A stretch of 64,000 nt of DNA, from the NCBI GenBank assembly GCA_009773665.1, contig WSYE01000001.1, positions 1-64,000 of the forward strand, written 5' to 3'. Below, piece by piece: positions 45,583 to 60,177 of the stretch. Position numbers and translations under genes: made by a program. The DNA comes from Desulfovibrionaceae bacterium (GTDB lineage Bacteria > Desulfobacterota > Desulfovibrionia > Desulfovibrionales > Desulfovibrionaceae). The notes beneath the pieces are model-generated. The model saw only the letters and a program-made list of their open reading frames with translations. It made no database searches and was not told the DNA's origin. Position 1 is the stretch's first letter. Each line of letters opens with the position of its first letter.

Positions 45583-45662
45583 GTAGTCAGAATAGGCGAA
45601 ATTTTCGGATGTCCCCGGCCCGACATCTTGCCCCGGCGGTTCCTGCCGGCGGAGGAACTACA

Positions 45663-53316: not shown

Positions 53317-53360
53317 TGGTCGGGGCGGCGAGATTTGAACTCACGACCCCCTGCGCCCAA
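53317..53360 (-). mobile_element. Attachment site: 3' half of tRNA-Pro
   Basis: The minus strand reads from the anticodon loop (TTGGGCGCAG) through the T-arm (GTGAG-TTCAAAT-CTCGC) to CGCCCCG-A-CCA, the 3' half of a tRNA-Pro. The 5' half (an expected CGGGGCG start) is absent; unrelated sequence begins at 53361 and the integrase gene follows at 53541. This is the usual scar of tyrosine integrases that recombine in a tRNA anticodon or T-arm. Confidence 0.85.
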
Positions 53361-53540
53361 GGCAATTGACTAGTGTTTTCAGGTCTTTTCAGCTCTATTC
53401 ATGCAGAGCATAAACCATTGACGGCAATAGAGAAAAGGCCATAAAAGCTGTTCATGGCTGTTCACCAAAAAGCACCCTTACGCACCCACTTTTTGTACCC
53501 AAATTTGTACCCAGGATTGGGGCAATAAGGGGAATAATAC

Positions 53541-54740
53541 ATGGCCCTTACCGATCTTCAAGTGAAGCGCCTTGTACCCCGCGAGAGCCGTTTTGAGGTT
53601 TTAGACGGAAAAGGACTGGCGGTTCGTGTGGCCCCTACAGGGACGAAGACCTGGATTTTCCGCTATCTCTTCGAGGGAACCCCCAGGCGGATGAGCTTGG
53701 GGAAATACCCTTCCATGACCCTGGCGGAGGCCCGTGAGGCGCACGGTAAGGCCCTGGCCGATGTGGAGCGCGGTATTGATCCGGGAGCCGTTGCCACCGA
53801 CGCCAAGAGGGCGCGGAAGGCCGCACCCACGTTCCATGACCTGCTCGAAGAGTTTTGGACGCGGGAGTTGAAGGCCACCAAGTCAGGCCCGGAGCGCAAG
53901 CGTCTGGTGGAGAAGGACGCCCTGCCAGCATGGCGGACCCGCAAGGCGAAGGACATAACCCGCCGGGACATCGTGGTGCTCATGGATGAGGTCCGGGACC
54001 GCGCTCCTATCACCGCCAACAGGCTTCTTGGAGTGCTGGCCCGCATGTTCAACTTTGCGGCGGAGCGGGGGATTATCGAGAACTCGCCAGCTACGCACAT
54101 TCGCCGCCCGTCCGAGGCCCCGCGAGTCCGCGTGCTCACTGACGATGAGTTGCGCTGCTTCTGGTTTGGGCTGGACAAGGCGGACATGTACCCTGCAACC
54201 CGGCTTGTCCTGCGGATGATCCTCTTGACCGGCCAGCGGCCAGGGGAAGTAACGGGCATGACCTGGGGGGAGGTCGAGGGCGAATGGTGGAACATTCCCG
54301 CCACCAGGATGAAGGGCGGACAGGCCCACCGCGTGCCGCTCACCCCTCTCTCACTGGAGGTAATCGAGCAGGCCCGGCGGTATTCCGGAGGGCGGCCATT
54401 TGTGTTCGCCAGTTCCCAACAGGCAACCCGGAGCGCGTCTATCACCGTGCATAGCCTCTCGCGTGGGGTTCTGCGCCATCGTGTGGAAATGGGGATAACT
54501 GAACACTACACGCCGCATGACCTCCGCCGTACCTGCCGCACACGGCTGGCGGAGATCGGCGTTGACGACGTTGTTGCGGAAAAAGTGCTGGGACATCAAC
54601 TCCAAGGGATTCTGAAGGTCTACAACCGTCACTCCTACGACACCGAAAAGAGAGCTGCGCTCCTGGCCTGGGAGAATCGGTTGAGGCGCATCCTTGGGCT
54701 TGAGATTGAGGGTGCGGGCAAGGTCATCAATCTGAGGTGA
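53541..54740 (+). CDS. Tyrosine recombinase/integrase, P4 type
   Basis: This 399-residue integrase has the N-terminal DUF4102 arm-binding domain (LTDLQVKRLVPRESRFEV, KTWIFRYLFEGTPRRMSLG). The catalytic domain has Arg233 in LTGQRPGEV, His326 and Arg329 in HDLRRTCRTRL, and Tyr366 in RHSYDTEKRAALLAW. All key residues are present, so it may be active. It lies 181 bp from the tRNA-Pro half-site, which is its likely target. Confidence 0.96.
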   Translation: MALTDLQVKRLVPRESRFEVLDGKGLAVRVAPTGTKTWIFRYLFEGTPRRMSLGKYPSMTLAEAREAHGKALADVERGIDPGAVATDAKRARKAAPTFHDLLEEFWTRELKATKSGPERKRLVEKDALPAWRTRKAKDITRRDIVVLMDEVRDRAPITANRLLGVLARMFNFAAERGIIENSPATHIRRPSEAPRVRVLTDDELRCFWFGLDKADMYPATRLVLRMILLTGQRPGEVTGMTWGEVEGEWWNIPATRMKGGQAHRVPLTPLSLEVIEQARRYSGGRPFVFASSQQATRSASITVHSLSRGVLRHRVEMGITEHYTPHDLRRTCRTRLAEIGVDDVVAEKVLGHQLQGILKVYNRHSYDTEKRAALLAWENRLRRILGLEIEGAGKVINLR

Positions 54741-55517: not shown

Positions 55518-55629
55518 GGCGAAAACCTAATTGGGTTTTCTCTTCCCTTAATAGGCCCACGCTTTTCTTCACCTCCCTAATTGGGTGTCCACACCAAAGC
55601 GCCAACAGAGCGCACAAAAGGACACCCCT

Positions 55630-55851
55630 ATGCAATCTGCTTCTATCCTTCGCAAGCCAGAAGTCGTCCGCCGTACCGGTCTGAGTGCCGCAACAATCCG
55701 CCGCCTTGAACTGGCGGGAAAATTCCCCCAGCGCCTCCAACTCTCGGCCATGGCCGTTGGTTGGGATGAGCGGGAGGTGGTGGGCTGGATAGAGGGCCGC
55801 GCCGCCGCCCGCGTTGAACTTCAATGTTCTGGGTTGGGTGGCGGAGCATGA
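55630..55851 (+). CDS. AlpA-like regulator / excisionase
   Basis: The 73-residue MerR-type helix-turn-helix protein has SILRKPEVVRRTGLSAATIR and a C-terminal WDEREVVGWIEGR, the AlpA (PF05930) layout. AlpA proteins activate integrase or act as excisionases in P4-like elements. AAGGA lies 8 bases before ATG 55630. Its stop overlaps the next start by 4 bp, opening a chain of overlapping genes. Confidence 0.85.
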   Translation: MQSASILRKPEVVRRTGLSAATIRRLELAGKFPQRLQLSAMAVGWDEREVVGWIEGRAAARVELQCSGLGGGA

Positions 55852-56027
55852 AAAGCAAAACCCCCAGCACGGGCCGGGGGCTGCAAGAAATGAAGCGGAC
55901 TGCTCTTTTCTTCGCCCACTGTGCCGCCGCCGTCAAGTGTCTGTTCGTCTCCCTGGCCGTCCACGATTTGGCCCCTGCCGCCCTGGTGGCCTTCTTGCTG
56001 CGCGTCCTGCGCTTGGGAGGTGCATAA
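55848..56027 (+). CDS. Small hydrophobic element protein
   Basis: The 59-residue product starts MKSKTPSTGRGLQE and contains one long apolar segment (about 17-55: AAAVKCLFVSLAVHDLAPAA). The ATG overlaps the alpA stop (ATGA), and its own TAA overlaps the next ATG by one base, which supports real translation. The function is unknown; it is possibly a membrane peptide. Confidence 0.55.
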   Translation: MKSKTPSTGRGLQEMKRTALFFAHCAAAVKCLFVSLAVHDLAPAALVAFLLRVLRLGGA

Positions 56028-56269
56028 TGATCGACGCCAGCACAGCGACAGCGCAACGCGCCCGACTCCTGGACGCCCTGCGCCGGGGGAGCCTGACCAC
56101 GTTGGAGGCCCGCCGCCGCCTGGACGTGATGCACCCTGCCGCCAGGGTTATGGAACTCCGCCGCCTGGGCTTCAACATCGTCACCATCTGGACCACGGAC
56201 GTAACTGCCGAGGGCAACACGCACCGGGTAGCCTGCTACCAACTCAGGCAGAGCGGGGGGACTCAATGA
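56027..56269 (+). CDS. Helix-turn-helix protein (HTH_39-like)
   Basis: The 80-residue protein reads RARLLDALRRGSLTTLEARR, then DVMHPAARVMELRRLGFNIV, the pattern of the HTH_39 winged helix found on phages and satellites. GGGAGG lies 7 bases upstream. It overlaps the genes on both sides, and its stop overlaps the primase start (ATGA). Confidence 0.78.
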   Translation: MIDASTATAQRARLLDALRRGSLTTLEARRRLDVMHPAARVMELRRLGFNIVTIWTTDVTAEGNTHRVACYQLRQSGGTQ

Positions 56270-59200
56270 GCGCCCCCATCATCAACTTCGAGCGGATCAA
56301 CGCCGCCGCCCTGCCCAGCCTGGAAAACCTACTGTCCCGATGGTTGCCCAACGGACGCGCTCTAAACGGCGAATTCATGGTTGGTTCCGTGGCTGGAGAG
56401 TCGGGGGATTCCCTCCGCATCAACCTGACGGACAAGCGCGGGGTCTGGAAGGACTTCGCCGGGGAGGTGGGCGGAACTGACCCCGTGAGTCTGTACGCCG
56501 CTATCTACAACCTCAAGCAGGGCGAAGCTGCCCGGAAGCTGGCAGGAGAGCTGGGCATTGATCCTGGAGGCAACGGGAGCGCCCCCAGGCCACAAGGGCA
56601 GGCCAAGGCCAAGCCCGCCGATGAATGGAGGCCCGTCCTCCCCGTTCCTGACGGAGCGCCCGCCCCGGACTTCAATCACCCCGGCCACGGCACGCCATCG
56701 GCAAGGTGGCCCTACCGCGATGCCGAGTCCTGCGTGCTGGGCTACGTGTGCCGCTTTGACACAGGCCAGGACCGCAAGGAGATCGTCCCGCACACCTACT
56801 GCCAGGGGGCAGGGGGGGCCATGCGCTGGAGGTGGAAGGGATTCCCGGAGCCGCGCCCGCTCTACGGTCTGGACCGTCTGGCAGCTGCTAAACCTGACGC
56901 GCCCGTACTGCTGGTGGAGGGGGAGAAGGCAGCGGACGCCGCCGGGCCTCTCCTGGCCGGGGCCGTGTGCATGACCTGGCCCAACGGATCAAAGAGCGTG
57001 GGCAAGGCGGACTTCTCCCCTCTGGACAGGCGGCGCGTGGCGATCTGGCCGGACGCGGACAAGCCGGGCTTCGAGGCCGCCCTTATCCTGGCCGCCAGGG
57101 TGAAGGAGGCCGGGGCAGAGAAAGTCTCGATCATCCTGCCCCCTGACGGCGTTGCCAAGGGATGGGACTTGGCCGACGCGGAGGGCGAAGGCTGGACCCC
57201 GGAACAGGTCACAGCGCATATCCAGGGCCACAAGCTGGACGTGATCTCTTTCGAGGCGGTGGCGCGTGTGCGGTACGGCATCGAGGCCAAGGCCGCCGTC
57301 AAGCCCACGCCGCAAGGCTGGTTCCCGTTTAAGGTCAAGAACGATGGCGTTTACTTCCTGGAGGATGACGGCGAACCGTCCTGGCTGTGCTCCCCGCTGG
57401 CCGTGCTGGCGATGACCCGCGACGGCGAGGGCCGGGAGTGGGGCCGCCTCCTCGAGGTGGTGGACAGCGACGGGCAGGCGCATCGTTGGGCAATGCCCAT
57501 GTCCGCCCTGGCTGGGGACGGGCAGGAATACCGCCGGGAACTGCTCTCCTTGGGATTGCGGGTGGCGTCTGGTAAGGGGCCGAAGCGCCTGCATGACTTT
57601 CTGACCCTCTCCCGTCCCGAGGCCCGCGCCCGCTGCGTCTCCCGCGTGGGCTGGCATGACCGCCGTTTTGTCCTGCCGGATGCTGTCCACGGCTCCCAGG
57701 ATGGGGAAGAGGTCATCCTTCAGGGTGGACCGTCTGACCACGCCTATCGGGTGGCCGGGAGCCTTCAGGACTGGCAGGGGTCCATCGGGCGCTACTGCCC
57801 CGGAAACTCCCGGCTGGTTCTGGCTGTGTCCGCTGCCCTGGCCGCTCCTCTCTTGGCACTGGCCGGGGCGGAGTCGGGCGGGTTTCATCTGGTAGGCGGC
57901 TCCTCCTGCGGCAAGACCACGGCCTTGAGGGTCGCAGGGTCCTTCTGTGGTGGCGGTGGCCTCCATGGCTATCTGCGCCAGTGGAGGGCTACAGACAACG
58001 CCCTTGAGTCCGTTTCTTCCGGGGCCTGCGATTGCCTCCTCACCCTGGATGAACTCGGGCAGGCGGACGCCAAGACAGCCGGGGCAGTGGCCTACATGCT
58101 CACCAACGGGCAGGGAAAGGCACGATCCAGGCGCGACGGCACGGCCAGGAAGCCCCAGGAGTGGCGCGTGCTGTTCCTGTCCACGGGTGAAATCACGCTG
58201 GGGGACAAGGTGCGCGAGGATGGCCGGGGCCGCATCATGGCCGGGCAGCAAGTCCGAGTCGTGGATATTCAGGCGGATGCCGGGGCCGGGTTCGGTCTGT
58301 TCGAGAACATCCACGGTTTCGAGTCTGCCGCAACCTTCGCCCACCATCTCAATGAACAGGCCAAGGCCGTCTATGGCTCCCCCCTACGGGCCTACCTGGA
58401 GAAACTGGCAGGGCGGATTGATGAAGTCTCCCAAGCTGCCCCGGCGTTCATCAAGGAGTTCGTGGCGGAGGTTTGCCCCTGCGATGCTGACGGACAGGTT
58501 TCCCGCGTGGCCGGGCGGTTCGGGCTGGTCGCTGCCGCTGGGGAGTTCGGCATATTCCTGGACGTGCTGCCATGGCCCAAGGGCGAAGCCCGGCAGGCTG
58601 CGGCCCGTTGCTTCCGGGATTGGCTGGACGCCAGGGGCGGCAGCGGCGCGGCGGAGGTGACGGCGGGGCTTACCCAGGTGCGGGCGTTCTTCCAGTCCCA
58701 CGGCGCGGCACGGTTTGAGACGTGGGGCGAAGTCTCCCTGGACGTTAAGACCATCAATCGGGCCGGGTTCCGCCGTAAGGATGAGGCCACGGGGGAGTGG
58801 AGCTTCTACGTGTTCCAGGACGTGTTCAAGGCGGAGGTCTGCCAGGGGCACAACGCCGGGATGATCCTGCGCGAACTGAAAGCCCGTGGCCTGCTTCTGG
58901 TCCAGGATTCCGAACATCTCACCGTCAAGCCGCGAATCCCCGGCGAAGGGAAAGGAACAAGGTTCTATCATATCGCTCCGGGCATCACCGGGGACACATC
59001 GCAACCGCGCACATCGCAAAAAACACCGGGGACAACCGGGGACACCGGGGACACGTTGTCCCGTCTAGGTTCCTATGTCCCCGGTTCTGAAAACGCTACC
59101 GGGGACACCGGGGACACGTCGAGCGGAGGGGTTGGGTTTGTCCCCGGTTGTCCCCGGTCCCCGGAAGAGTACCGGGGACGCCAGGAAGCAAGTAACGACG

Positions 59201-59301
59201 CCATGTCCCCGGTTGTCCCCGGTGTCCCCGGTCAAAATGACGTGGGGGAGAGAAAAGACCCCGTTCCCATGTGGGACGGCCCTGCCGAGGTGGAGATATG
59301 A
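56266..59301 (+). CDS. DUF927-type primase-helicase
   Basis: The 1011-residue replication protein begins at ATG 56266. Residues about 1-110 resemble the N-terminal part of DUF3987/DUF927 primases (ESGDSLRINLTDKRGVWKDF). A Toprim-like segment follows (PVLLVEGEKAADAAG and RVAIWPDADKPGFEAA). The DUF927 helicase core spans about 380-830, with Walker A GGSSCGKTTAL near 545 and LLTLDELGQADAKTAG as Walker B. The last 120 residues are low-complexity Gly/Asp/Thr/Pro because they are written over the iteron array at 58988-59231. It probably initiates replication of the element. Confidence 0.85.
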   Translation: MSAPIINFERINAAALPSLENLLSRWLPNGRALNGEFMVGSVAGESGDSLRINLTDKRGVWKDFAGEVGGTDPVSLYAAIYNLKQGEAARKLAGELGIDPGGNGSAPRPQGQAKAKPADEWRPVLPVPDGAPAPDFNHPGHGTPSARWPYRDAESCVLGYVCRFDTGQDRKEIVPHTYCQGAGGAMRWRWKGFPEPRPLYGLDRLAAAKPDAPVLLVEGEKAADAAGPLLAGAVCMTWPNGSKSVGKADFSPLDRRRVAIWPDADKPGFEAALILAARVKEAGAEKVSIILPPDGVAKGWDLADAEGEGWTPEQVTAHIQGHKLDVISFEAVARVRYGIEAKAAVKPTPQGWFPFKVKNDGVYFLEDDGEPSWLCSPLAVLAMTRDGEGREWGRLLEVVDSDGQAHRWAMPMSALAGDGQEYRRELLSLGLRVASGKGPKRLHDFLTLSRPEARARCVSRVGWHDRRFVLPDAVHGSQDGEEVILQGGPSDHAYRVAGSLQDWQGSIGRYCPGNSRLVLAVSAALAAPLLALAGAESGGFHLVGGSSCGKTTALRVAGSFCGGGGLHGYLRQWRATDNALESVSSGACDCLLTLDELGQADAKTAGAVAYMLTNGQGKARSRRDGTARKPQEWRVLFLSTGEITLGDKVREDGRGRIMAGQQVRVVDIQADAGAGFGLFENIHGFESAATFAHHLNEQAKAVYGSPLRAYLEKLAGRIDEVSQAAPAFIKEFVAEVCPCDADGQVSRVAGRFGLVAAAGEFGIFLDVLPWPKGEARQAAARCFRDWLDARGGSGAAEVTAGLTQVRAFFQSHGAARFETWGEVSLDVKTINRAGFRRKDEATGEWSFYVFQDVFKAEVCQGHNAGMILRELKARGLLLVQDSEHLTVKPRIPGEGKGTRFYHIAPGITGDTSQPRTSQKTPGTTGDTGDTLSRLGSYVPGSENATGDTGDTSSGGVGFVPGCPRSPEEYRGRQEASNDAMSPVVPGVPGQNDVGERKDPVPMWDGPAEVEI
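58988..59231. repeat. Iteron-like array inside the primase gene (candidate origin)
   Basis: The 9-mer CCGGGGACA occurs exactly 12 times in 244 bp: six forward (58988, 59026, 59036, 59045, 59099, 59108) and six reversed (59076, 59139, 59149, 59204, 59214, 59223), plus one copy with a single change at 59172. Neighbouring copies are spaced 9 or 10 bp, close to one helical turn. A palindrome, GGGACA-CGT-TGTCCC, lies at 59048-59062. Iterons near a primase gene are the normal origin layout in plasmids and phage satellites. Confidence 0.8.
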
Positions 59302-59666
59302 GCGCCGCCCAAGTCATCGAATCCATGGGGGCGTCCGTCTCCCTGGTGGGCGGCAAGTTGAAGCTGGCGGGCCTGGATCGTCTGGACCGGGACACCGCCG
59401 CCCGCGTGCTGGACGTGGCCCGCGCCCGCAGGGCGGAGATCGTGGCGGAGCTTGGGGGGCTGGTGGCCCCCGTTCCTGCCGATACTTCCCCCCTGGAGGC
59501 CCTGACCCGGTTCGAGCGTGATCCTCGCGGCGTCGTGGCGTGGTTGGCCCAACAGGGGCAGGGACAGGCTCAATACCTTGTCCCCAGGTGGGCGGCTGCG
59601 ATCCGTGCCGAGGCCCGTTTGCGGGTTGAAGAGTCGGAGGGAGGGGCTGACCATGCCCGCGCCTGA
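59298..59666 (+). CDS. Small protein with TubC-docking-like N terminus
   Basis: The 122-residue protein starts at ATG 59298, overlapping the primase stop by 4 bp. The start (QVIESMGASVSLVGGKLKLA, then RDTAARVLDVARARRAEIVA) has the shape of the small TubC-type docking fold often found on mobile-element proteins. The rest (FERDPRGVVAWLAQQGQGQA) is unassigned. It overlaps the nuclease gene by 14 bp. Confidence 0.68.
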   Translation: MSAAQVIESMGASVSLVGGKLKLAGLDRLDRDTAARVLDVARARRAEIVAELGGLVAPVPADTSPLEALTRFERDPRGVVAWLAQQGQGQAQYLVPRWAAAIRAEARLRVEESEGGADHARA

Positions 59667-60177
59667 TTCGCCGCTCACCATCATCGTGGACACCAGGGAG
59701 CAGGCCCCCTACGCATTCGAGCGGTTCCAGGCGGAGAGCGTCCGGGCCGGATTGCCTACAGGTGACTATTCCCTCCCCGGCCATGAGCGACATGCCGCCA
59801 TCGAGCGCAAATCCCTGGATGACCTCATAGGCTGCCTGGCGGTGGGCCGTGACCGCTTCGAGCGTGAGCTTGCCCGTGGGCGGTCCATGGATTTGTTCGC
59901 CGTGGTGGTCGAGGCCAGCATGGAGGACGTTGCCCGCCACCGCTACACCAGCCGCATGGACCCACACGCGGCCCTGCAAAGCATCCTGGCGTTCCAGGTG
60001 CGCTATGCCTGCCCATTCGTGTTTGCAGGCTCCAGGGCGGGCGGAGAGTACATTACCTACTGGACGCTTCAAAAGTACGTCCGCGAGGTCGAAGCGCGTC
60101 AGGCCGAAACCCAGGCCGTGGCAGAACTGGTGGGCCTGGAAAACCGAAGAGCTACGAGACACAGGGGGCAACCATGA
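59653..60177 (+). CDS. ERCC4-domain nuclease
   Basis: The 174-residue protein has IIVDTREQAPYAF, then GDYSLPG and AAIERKSLDDLIGCL, the catalytic GDY...ERK...D motif of ERCC4/Mus81-type structure-specific nucleases. No helicase part or HhH domain is present. It probably resolves branched DNA during replication or excision of the element. It overlaps the upstream gene by 14 bp and the downstream gene by 4 bp. Confidence 0.88.
   Translation: MPAPDSPLTIIVDTREQAPYAFERFQAESVRAGLPTGDYSLPGHERHAAIERKSLDDLIGCLAVGRDRFERELARGRSMDLFAVVVEASMEDVARHRYTSRMDPHAALQSILAFQVRYACPFVFAGSRAGGEYITYWTLQKYVREVEARQAETQAVAELVGLENRRATRHRGQP

Follow-up and report, generated by a model that had tools for sequence, protein, structure and literature searches.

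The first 64,000 nucleotides of contig WSYE01000001.1 of a Desulfovibrionaceae bacterium (assembly GCA_009773665.1; this whole stretch is referred to as the window) carry part of a probable genomic island that encodes a DUF927 primase-helicase, and the 3' end of the primase-helicase gene contains an array of short repeats in both orientations. We consider it probable, at roughly 85%, that this array is the initiator-binding part of the replication origin of the element and is bound by the winged helix of the primase-helicase. This reading draws on the array itself, its conservation as DNA, the recurrence of arrays built from other units at the same place in relatives, the mirror order of the copies, and the modelled folds of the helicase and of the winged helix.

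A repeat array within the primase-helicase frame

The 9-mer CCGGGGACA is present in 12 exact copies, six per strand, that span positions 58988 to 59231 (244 bp) and lie wholly within the primase-helicase frame (56266-59301, + strand), as stated in an earlier note on this sequence. The copies on the + strand start at 58988, 59026, 59036, 59045, 59099 and 59108, and those on the - strand at 59076, 59139, 59149, 59204, 59214 and 59223. The window contains 14 exact copies in total, whereas 100 dinucleotide-shuffled versions of it have 1.19 on average and never more than 4. Outside the array, the copies are isolated, at contig positions 45610 and 48544 (left of the integrase gene), 85332 and 105729; no second cluster was detected from the window start to contig position 113000, and no further same-strand pair within 25 bp in the assembly (66% complete). 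The 9-10 bp steps described previously apply to 6 of the 11 intervals between successive copies, but not to the other five (23, 31, 31, 38 and 55 bp). A BLASTN search of the array against plasmids yielded only short matches (E 0.8), and a single-sequence scan of viral contigs produced no match.

When the lone copy at 58988 is set aside and the near copy at 59172 is counted, the array reads >>> < >> on the left and << > <<< on the right, a mirror image about position 59128. The symmetry thus extends beyond the one central palindrome of the earlier note to the whole array. The copies and near copies are:

58988-58996, +, CCGGGGACA, lone outer copy
59026-59034, +, CCGGGGACA, left half, triple copy 1
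59036-59044, +, CCGGGGACA, left half, triple copy 2
59045-59053, +, CCGGGGACA, left half, triple copy 3
59076-59084, -, CCGGGGACA, left half, reversed single
59099-59107, +, CCGGGGACA, left half, double copy 1
59108-59116, +, CCGGGGACA, left half, double copy 2
59139-59147, -, CCGGGGACA, right half, double copy 1
59149-59157, -, CCGGGGACA, right half, double copy 2
59156-59164, -, near copy CCGGGGACC, overlapping the neighbouring copy by 2 bases
59172-59180, +, near copy CCGGGGACG, right half, reversed single
59204-59212, -, CCGGGGACA, right half, triple copy 1
59214-59222, -, CCGGGGACA, right half, triple copy 2
59223-59231, -, CCGGGGACA, right half, triple copy 3

Conservation of the array as DNA

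The closest relative found, L038, belongs to the same genus, encodes a primase 84% identical to that of the window (83% by tblastn), and retains 11 of the 12 CCGGGGACA copies. Between the two tail-coding regions, 1 of 108 bases inside the copies is changed, compared with 41 of 213 outside (p 2.8e-7); when copies are defined in either sequence with at most one mismatch, the respective fractions are 1/124 and 41/200. All 26 fourfold degenerate sites inside the copies are unchanged, whereas 7 of 31 such sites differ in the remainder of the tail (p 0.012) and 130 of 435 differ in the gene body (p 1.9e-4). Judged from these comparisons, selection maintains the array as DNA rather than as a peptide, in agreement with the earlier note. 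Selection on the Gly-Asp-Thr and Pro-Gly-Val peptide repeats of the tail would be compatible with the in-frame position of the array in the window and in L038, L040, L043 and L045, but is very improbable given the unchanged fourfold sites. Furthermore, L043 has both a different unit, GGGTTACC, and a different tail peptide with Val-Thr-Arg-Val-Thr; in L047, copies both precede and follow a TAG stop that falls within the array; and in most of the arrays described below, the first copy follows the stop codon.

In the protein alignment, the conserved part of the primase-helicase ends near residue 907, and long tails are found only in relatives in which the frame runs on. In the window, L038, L040, L043, L045 and L039, the end of the long tail overlaps a possible start codon of a following gene by four bases, GTGA in L038 and ATGA in the others (the L039 array was detected only in the one-mismatch scan, one copy above the shuffle maximum). 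In the window, the ATG of the next gene, encoding a 122-aa protein, overlaps the primase stop in this manner (ATGA, 59298-59301). The open frame likely lets translation run on to the next gene, which would be the reason for the in-frame array.

Arrays at the same place in relatives

For the 3' ends of the primase genes of relatives, the count of the commonest 8-mer on both strands was compared with those in 50 dinucleotide shuffles. The loci were the best-scoring ones from two overlapping searches of 297 genomes each (with 26 and 106 genomes matching), along with one Nitrosomonas contig; accordingly, the sample is not random, and homology was assigned by alignment rather than by individual DUF927 scans. 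From 96 tblastn matches among L007-L103, 82 reached query residue 780 and three of these were too short, leaving 79 loci that include the window (L008) and several near-identical arrays. At the 3' end, 48 of the 79 loci beat all shuffles, whereas the gene body gave 2 of 79; the window accounts for one of these two, with 4 copies where its shuffles reach at most 3. With one mismatch allowed, the array was regained in 11 of the 31 loci that were negative in the exact scan, and in 1 of 31 in the body control. Among viral contigs (the best 80 of 342 loci, reduced to 58 after removal of 21 near-duplicates and one short locus), 36 of 58 unique loci beat the shuffles at the 3' end and none did so in the gene body. 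A second run on viral contigs covering other regions, where length allowed, gave 38/57 at the 3' end, 2/48 further downstream and 1/48 upstream. The check proposed in the earlier note, namely a search for repeats of different sequence at the same place in related primase genes, thus turned out positive.

Eleven named records, mostly small replicons, were picked by hand from 86 plasmid and 34 phage records with matches. Nine of them beat the shuffles, and in eight of the nine the array lies within ~315 bp of the stop codon; L107 has four exact copies behind the stop, and L105 has only four copies, 648-746 bp past the stop, and no array near it. Two similar Pseudomonas records (L111 and L115) showed no array in the scan. 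The annotated crr site of phage P4, located 3' of the P4 primase gene, was recovered by the same procedure.

Several of these records have features of their own. In plasmid pMNOD05 of Methylobacterium nodulans (L106, 18450-18839), the array is inside the annotated gene that follows the primase gene, so that translation of the repeats would yield a different protein in this plasmid. Plasmid records from E. coli (L109) and Klebsiella (L113) share the unit GAACCAAC in arrays behind DUF927 genes, and the Klebsiella record also contains capsid and terminase genes. A Photobacterium plasmid with a DUF927 array (L108, 7949-9661) encodes a protelomerase and is recorded as linear, and therefore this type of origin may serve a linear replicon.

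After removal of 12 near-duplicates (L038 included) and of arrays with fewer than five exact copies, 67 arrays remained, including that of the window. Both orientations are present in 63 of these, as well as in P4 ori1 and crr, so that the mixture of orientations, previously considered unusual for iterons, is the rule here. Of 229 same-strand neighbours no more than 60 bp apart, 160 are spaced by 8-10 bp, including 128 at 9 bp. The first copy lies past the stop codon in 58 of the 67 arrays; across the full set, its median start is +33 bp. Averaged over 78 arrays, a set that includes some near-duplicates and was seeded with the window unit, the motif is approximately CAGKKGKNACAG.

The mirror order recurs among relatives. 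Mirror partners are opposite in orientation in 150 of 212 pairs from 43 arrays, compared with a mean of 106 and a maximum of 132 in 5000 permutations (43 of 57 arrays were used, including P4 and the window, after nine near-duplicates and arrays with fewer than six copies were left out). The 12-copy mirror order, exact or one edit away, was found in 15 of 74 arrays (the set of 67 and seven of the 11 named relatives), with a permutation mean of 0.15 and a maximum of 2 (300 permutations), the 3-1-2 template having been picked after the arrays had been viewed. This result is weak in that the other 59 arrays are further than one edit from the template; the window itself scores a distance of 3, because the automatic caller adds near copies. 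The orientation of the array ends, opposite in 36 and the same in 21 of 57 arrays, is likewise a weak signal. Short GC-rich repeats can become homogenised, and the array might then be a functionless by-product of slippage or conversion; this explanation appears the least probable of all, considering the two orientations with a preferred spacing, the fixed place with a changing unit, and the mirror order.

The primase-helicase

The protein consists of an N-terminal part matching phage primase families, the DUF927 MCM-like helicase, a C-terminal winged helix and the array-read tail, in this order. The two distal parts correspond to:

58462-58986, +, C-terminal region, residues 733-907, predicted as the likely reader of the array (AlphaFold2 predicted local distance difference test score, pLDDT, 89.9)
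58987-59298, +, coding tail built from the array, missing in relatives whose primase stops before the array

The model of residues 355-907 has a pLDDT of 91.4. The nearest solved fold to the helicase model (model residues 1-552) is Cch of the staphylococcal cassette chromosome mec (SCCmec; 5dgk, Z 31.1, root-mean-square deviation (rmsd) 4.2, 473 residues), followed by SaPIbov1 Rep (8tch, Z 28.6, rmsd 5.4, 453 residues); the next matches are replisome and MCM helicases with Z of at most 14.0. The modelled initiator fold is thus of the SaPIbov1 Rep/Cch helicase type. Within the C-terminal model (residues 733-907), the winged helix occupies residues 64-175 and matches a relaxosome accessory protein of pCW3, which we take to be TcpK (5vfy/5vfx, Z 9.8/9.4, rmsd 2.5, 88-90 residues) and which has also been solved with oriT DNA. 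Further matches are Cch (5dgk, Z 8.4, rmsd 2.7, 90 residues) and SaPIbov1 Rep (8tch, Z 9.8), the latter over 152 residues but with an rmsd of 7.0. The origin-binding domain of the P4 alpha protein was absent among the C-terminal fold matches, although this search is no test of its absence.

Proposed function and alternatives

In the mechanism that we propose, the winged helix at the end of the DUF927 primase-helicase would bind the 9-mers, probably with one hexamer loaded per mirror half; the MCM-like helicase would then open the DNA and the fused primase part would start synthesis. The primase frame would continue across the origin and thereby bring its stop codon to the start of the next gene, where the two overlap; the tail with its Gly-Asp-Thr and Pro-Gly-Val repeats would be a by-product of translation across the origin.

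Several observations weigh against this assignment. The array contains no AT-rich stretch, with a G+C content of 57-70% in 60-bp windows, unlike the origins of phage-inducible chromosomal islands (PICIs), and 20 of the 79 loci lack an array even at one mismatch (one of them, L060, is largely N behind the gene). In Mantel tests, similarity of the units correlates with helicase identity (0.263) and with C-terminal identity (0.226); however, the partial correlation for the C-terminal part given the helicase is 0.026 (291 of 1000 permutations as high), whereas that for the helicase given the C-terminal part is 0.14 (3 of 1000). The proposal that the C-terminal region reads the unit therefore relies on the fold and on published relatives, not on covariation. 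Finally, the region may be a cis-required site rather than a start point: P4 type 1 repeats are present at both ori1 and crr, and it is crr that lies directly 3' of the primase gene. Under this alternative, the array would be a cis-required or copy-control site like crr, with synthesis starting at a second site on the element. We regard this as unlikely, as the CCGGGGACA copies outside the array are single, with no second cluster up to contig position 113000, and the order of the array is closer to that of P4 ori1 (>>> < >>) than to that of crr; PICI origins, moreover, occupy the same place (PMC6092414; this and the other papers are cited from excerpts).

Another protein, encoded by the HTH_39 or AlpA gene, could instead bind the array as an operator or partition site. 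Both genes are neighbours of the primase gene and are kept in L038, but the nearest listed gene upstream of the primase or primase-helicase gene has no HTH_39 match in any of nine named records (one gene per record, L105 among the nine, with incomplete gene tables for the plasmids), and it is at the 3' end of the primase gene that the arrays are concentrated (38/57, against 2/48 and 1/48 elsewhere). Such a role is quite improbable. Of the two readers suggested in the earlier note, the primase-helicase is thus predicted as the best explanation, whereas the HTH_39 protein appears unlikely in view of the upstream genes listed in the nine records. The origin bound by the primase-helicase accordingly remains the preferred interpretation.

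The element and its gene neighbourhood

The array is embedded in the following features:

53318-53364, -, tRNA-Pro 3' fragment, probably marking the left end of the island
53541-54740, +, tyrosine integrase gene
55585-55851, +, AlpA-family regulator gene
56027-56269, +, HTH_39 winged-helix gene
56266-59301, +, DUF927 primase-helicase gene, 1011 aa
59298-59666, +, next gene, 122 aa, without a Pfam or PHROG match
59653-60177, +, ERCC4-type nuclease gene

L038 keeps the integrase, AlpA, HTH_39, primase and ERCC4 genes at 76-85% identity and the 122-aa protein at 58%; a 229-aa protein and a DUF5677 gene were not found in L038. An intact tRNA-Pro (TGG) at contig position 111443-111521 (L198), in the same orientation as the fragment at 53318-53364, carries a second tRNA-Pro end, and therefore the island may span ~58 kb, the fragment and the intact gene being its probable ends. 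The attL search returned one site with a 29-base pattern and a second site with a shorter pattern. Genes for a Mu-like transposase, a minor tail protein and baseplate J are located at contig positions 74185-76272, 97071-99170 and 104295-105359 (L199-L201), so that a Mu-like prophage is contained in the same ~58-kb stretch as the primase module. Between the primase module and the Mu-like genes are those for a P-type (E1-E2) ATPase and a KdpD-like sensor kinase (contig 63572-66343 and 67032-69722, L199).

Implications

For most satellites and integrative elements, the replication origin has yet to be mapped. A rule of place (the 3' end of the DUF927 gene), together with the core motif and the mirror order, would permit origins to be predicted across many elements, and the natural pairs of unit and initiator could be used to test how a self-loading helicase is positioned on double-stranded DNA. 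The array within the frame would be a clean example of an origin constraining a coding sequence. Neither the mirror 3-1-2 order nor an origin inside a DUF927 gene was found in the titles and abstract beginnings that were searched, and subscription papers fell mostly outside this search, so that the negative result is no proof that they are unpublished. An origin inside an initiator gene is known (lambda, PMC3985674), whereas these searches gave no precedent for the in-frame placement in the DUF927 family or for the 12-copy mirror order.

Comparison with known systems

Classical iteron plasmid origins consist of direct repeats in a single orientation; the window array, with six copies in each orientation, does not have this form. 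The iterons of the lambda ori likewise share one orientation, and lambda O is not a helicase-primase. Lambda resembles the window in that an iteron origin lies within the gene of its own initiator, gene O, but differs in having four 19-bp iterons in the middle of that gene (PMC3985674). A satellite origin with a RepA_N initiator is of yet another kind (PMC7145576). SCCmec Cch, as noted, is the nearest solved fold to the window helicase, and Cch2 binds repeats directly downstream of its own gene via its C-terminal domain; it belongs, however, to another helicase family and recognises three 5-nt iterons (PMC7581432).

P4 shares with the window a short unit ending in ACA, both orientations, and repeats (crr) 3' of the primase gene. 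With the unit written GGTGAACA, P4 ori1, which is part of the annotated replication origin, has the order >>> < >>, identical to that of the left half of the window array (59026-59116). In the P4 record (L104, 9310-9413), the ori type 1 repeats are annotated on the other strand. The unit itself differs (GGTGAACA versus CCGGGGACA): against the DUF927 mean motif, the six P4 ori1 copies score 3.9-6.6 and the window copies, which are part of the motif and its seed, 8.6-11.0, while the 95th and 99th percentiles for random 18-mers are 4.3 and 6.4. P4 also has two separate sites, one half rather than a mirror pair, and other spacings. Its alpha protein is a D5_N/Pox_D5 protein, whereas that of the window is DUF927, and the best BLASTP match between the two (26.9 bits) joins non-equivalent regions. 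Given the other helicase family and the weak fit of the unit, P4 resembles the window in the order and place of the repeats rather than in its initiator or unit.

It is conceivable, and we offer this tentatively, that DUF927 primase-helicases share an origin grammar, in which two 3-1-2 half-sites arranged as mirror images (12 iterons in total) would place two facing hexamers, one iteron per subunit, with element-specific units on a common core of about KKGKNACAG; P4 ori1 would be one such half, and the array could enter the coding sequence in a tightly packed operon. The weak fit of the P4 unit to the mean motif lowers the probability that we assign to this generalisation.

Among the closest known systems are the origins of Staphylococcus aureus pathogenicity islands (SaPIs) and PICIs, which consist of iterons directly 3' of rep, the gene of the initiator; the C-terminal domain of SaPI Rep reads these iterons, and Cch, a relative of SaPIbov1 Rep, contains DUF927 (PMC7581432, PMC6092414). 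In every mapped E. coli PICI origin, an AT-rich region is flanked by two sets of iterons, and one E. coli PICI rep-ori replicates a plasmid in E. coli (PMC6092414). The pri-rep-ori module of SaPIbov1 and the PICIs and that of the window have in common the initiator helicase fold (predicted for the window), iterons at the 3' end of the gene, and two iteron sets. They differ in that the window array is inside the reading frame, whereas 58 of the 67 arrays begin after the stop codon, and has no AT-rich stretch between the sets. The lack of an AT-rich region keeps us from classing the array as a PICI origin, and the different unit and initiator family from classing it as a P4 origin. The origin would most likely work like those of SaPIs, PICIs and P4, except that it lies in frame and lacks an AT-rich core.

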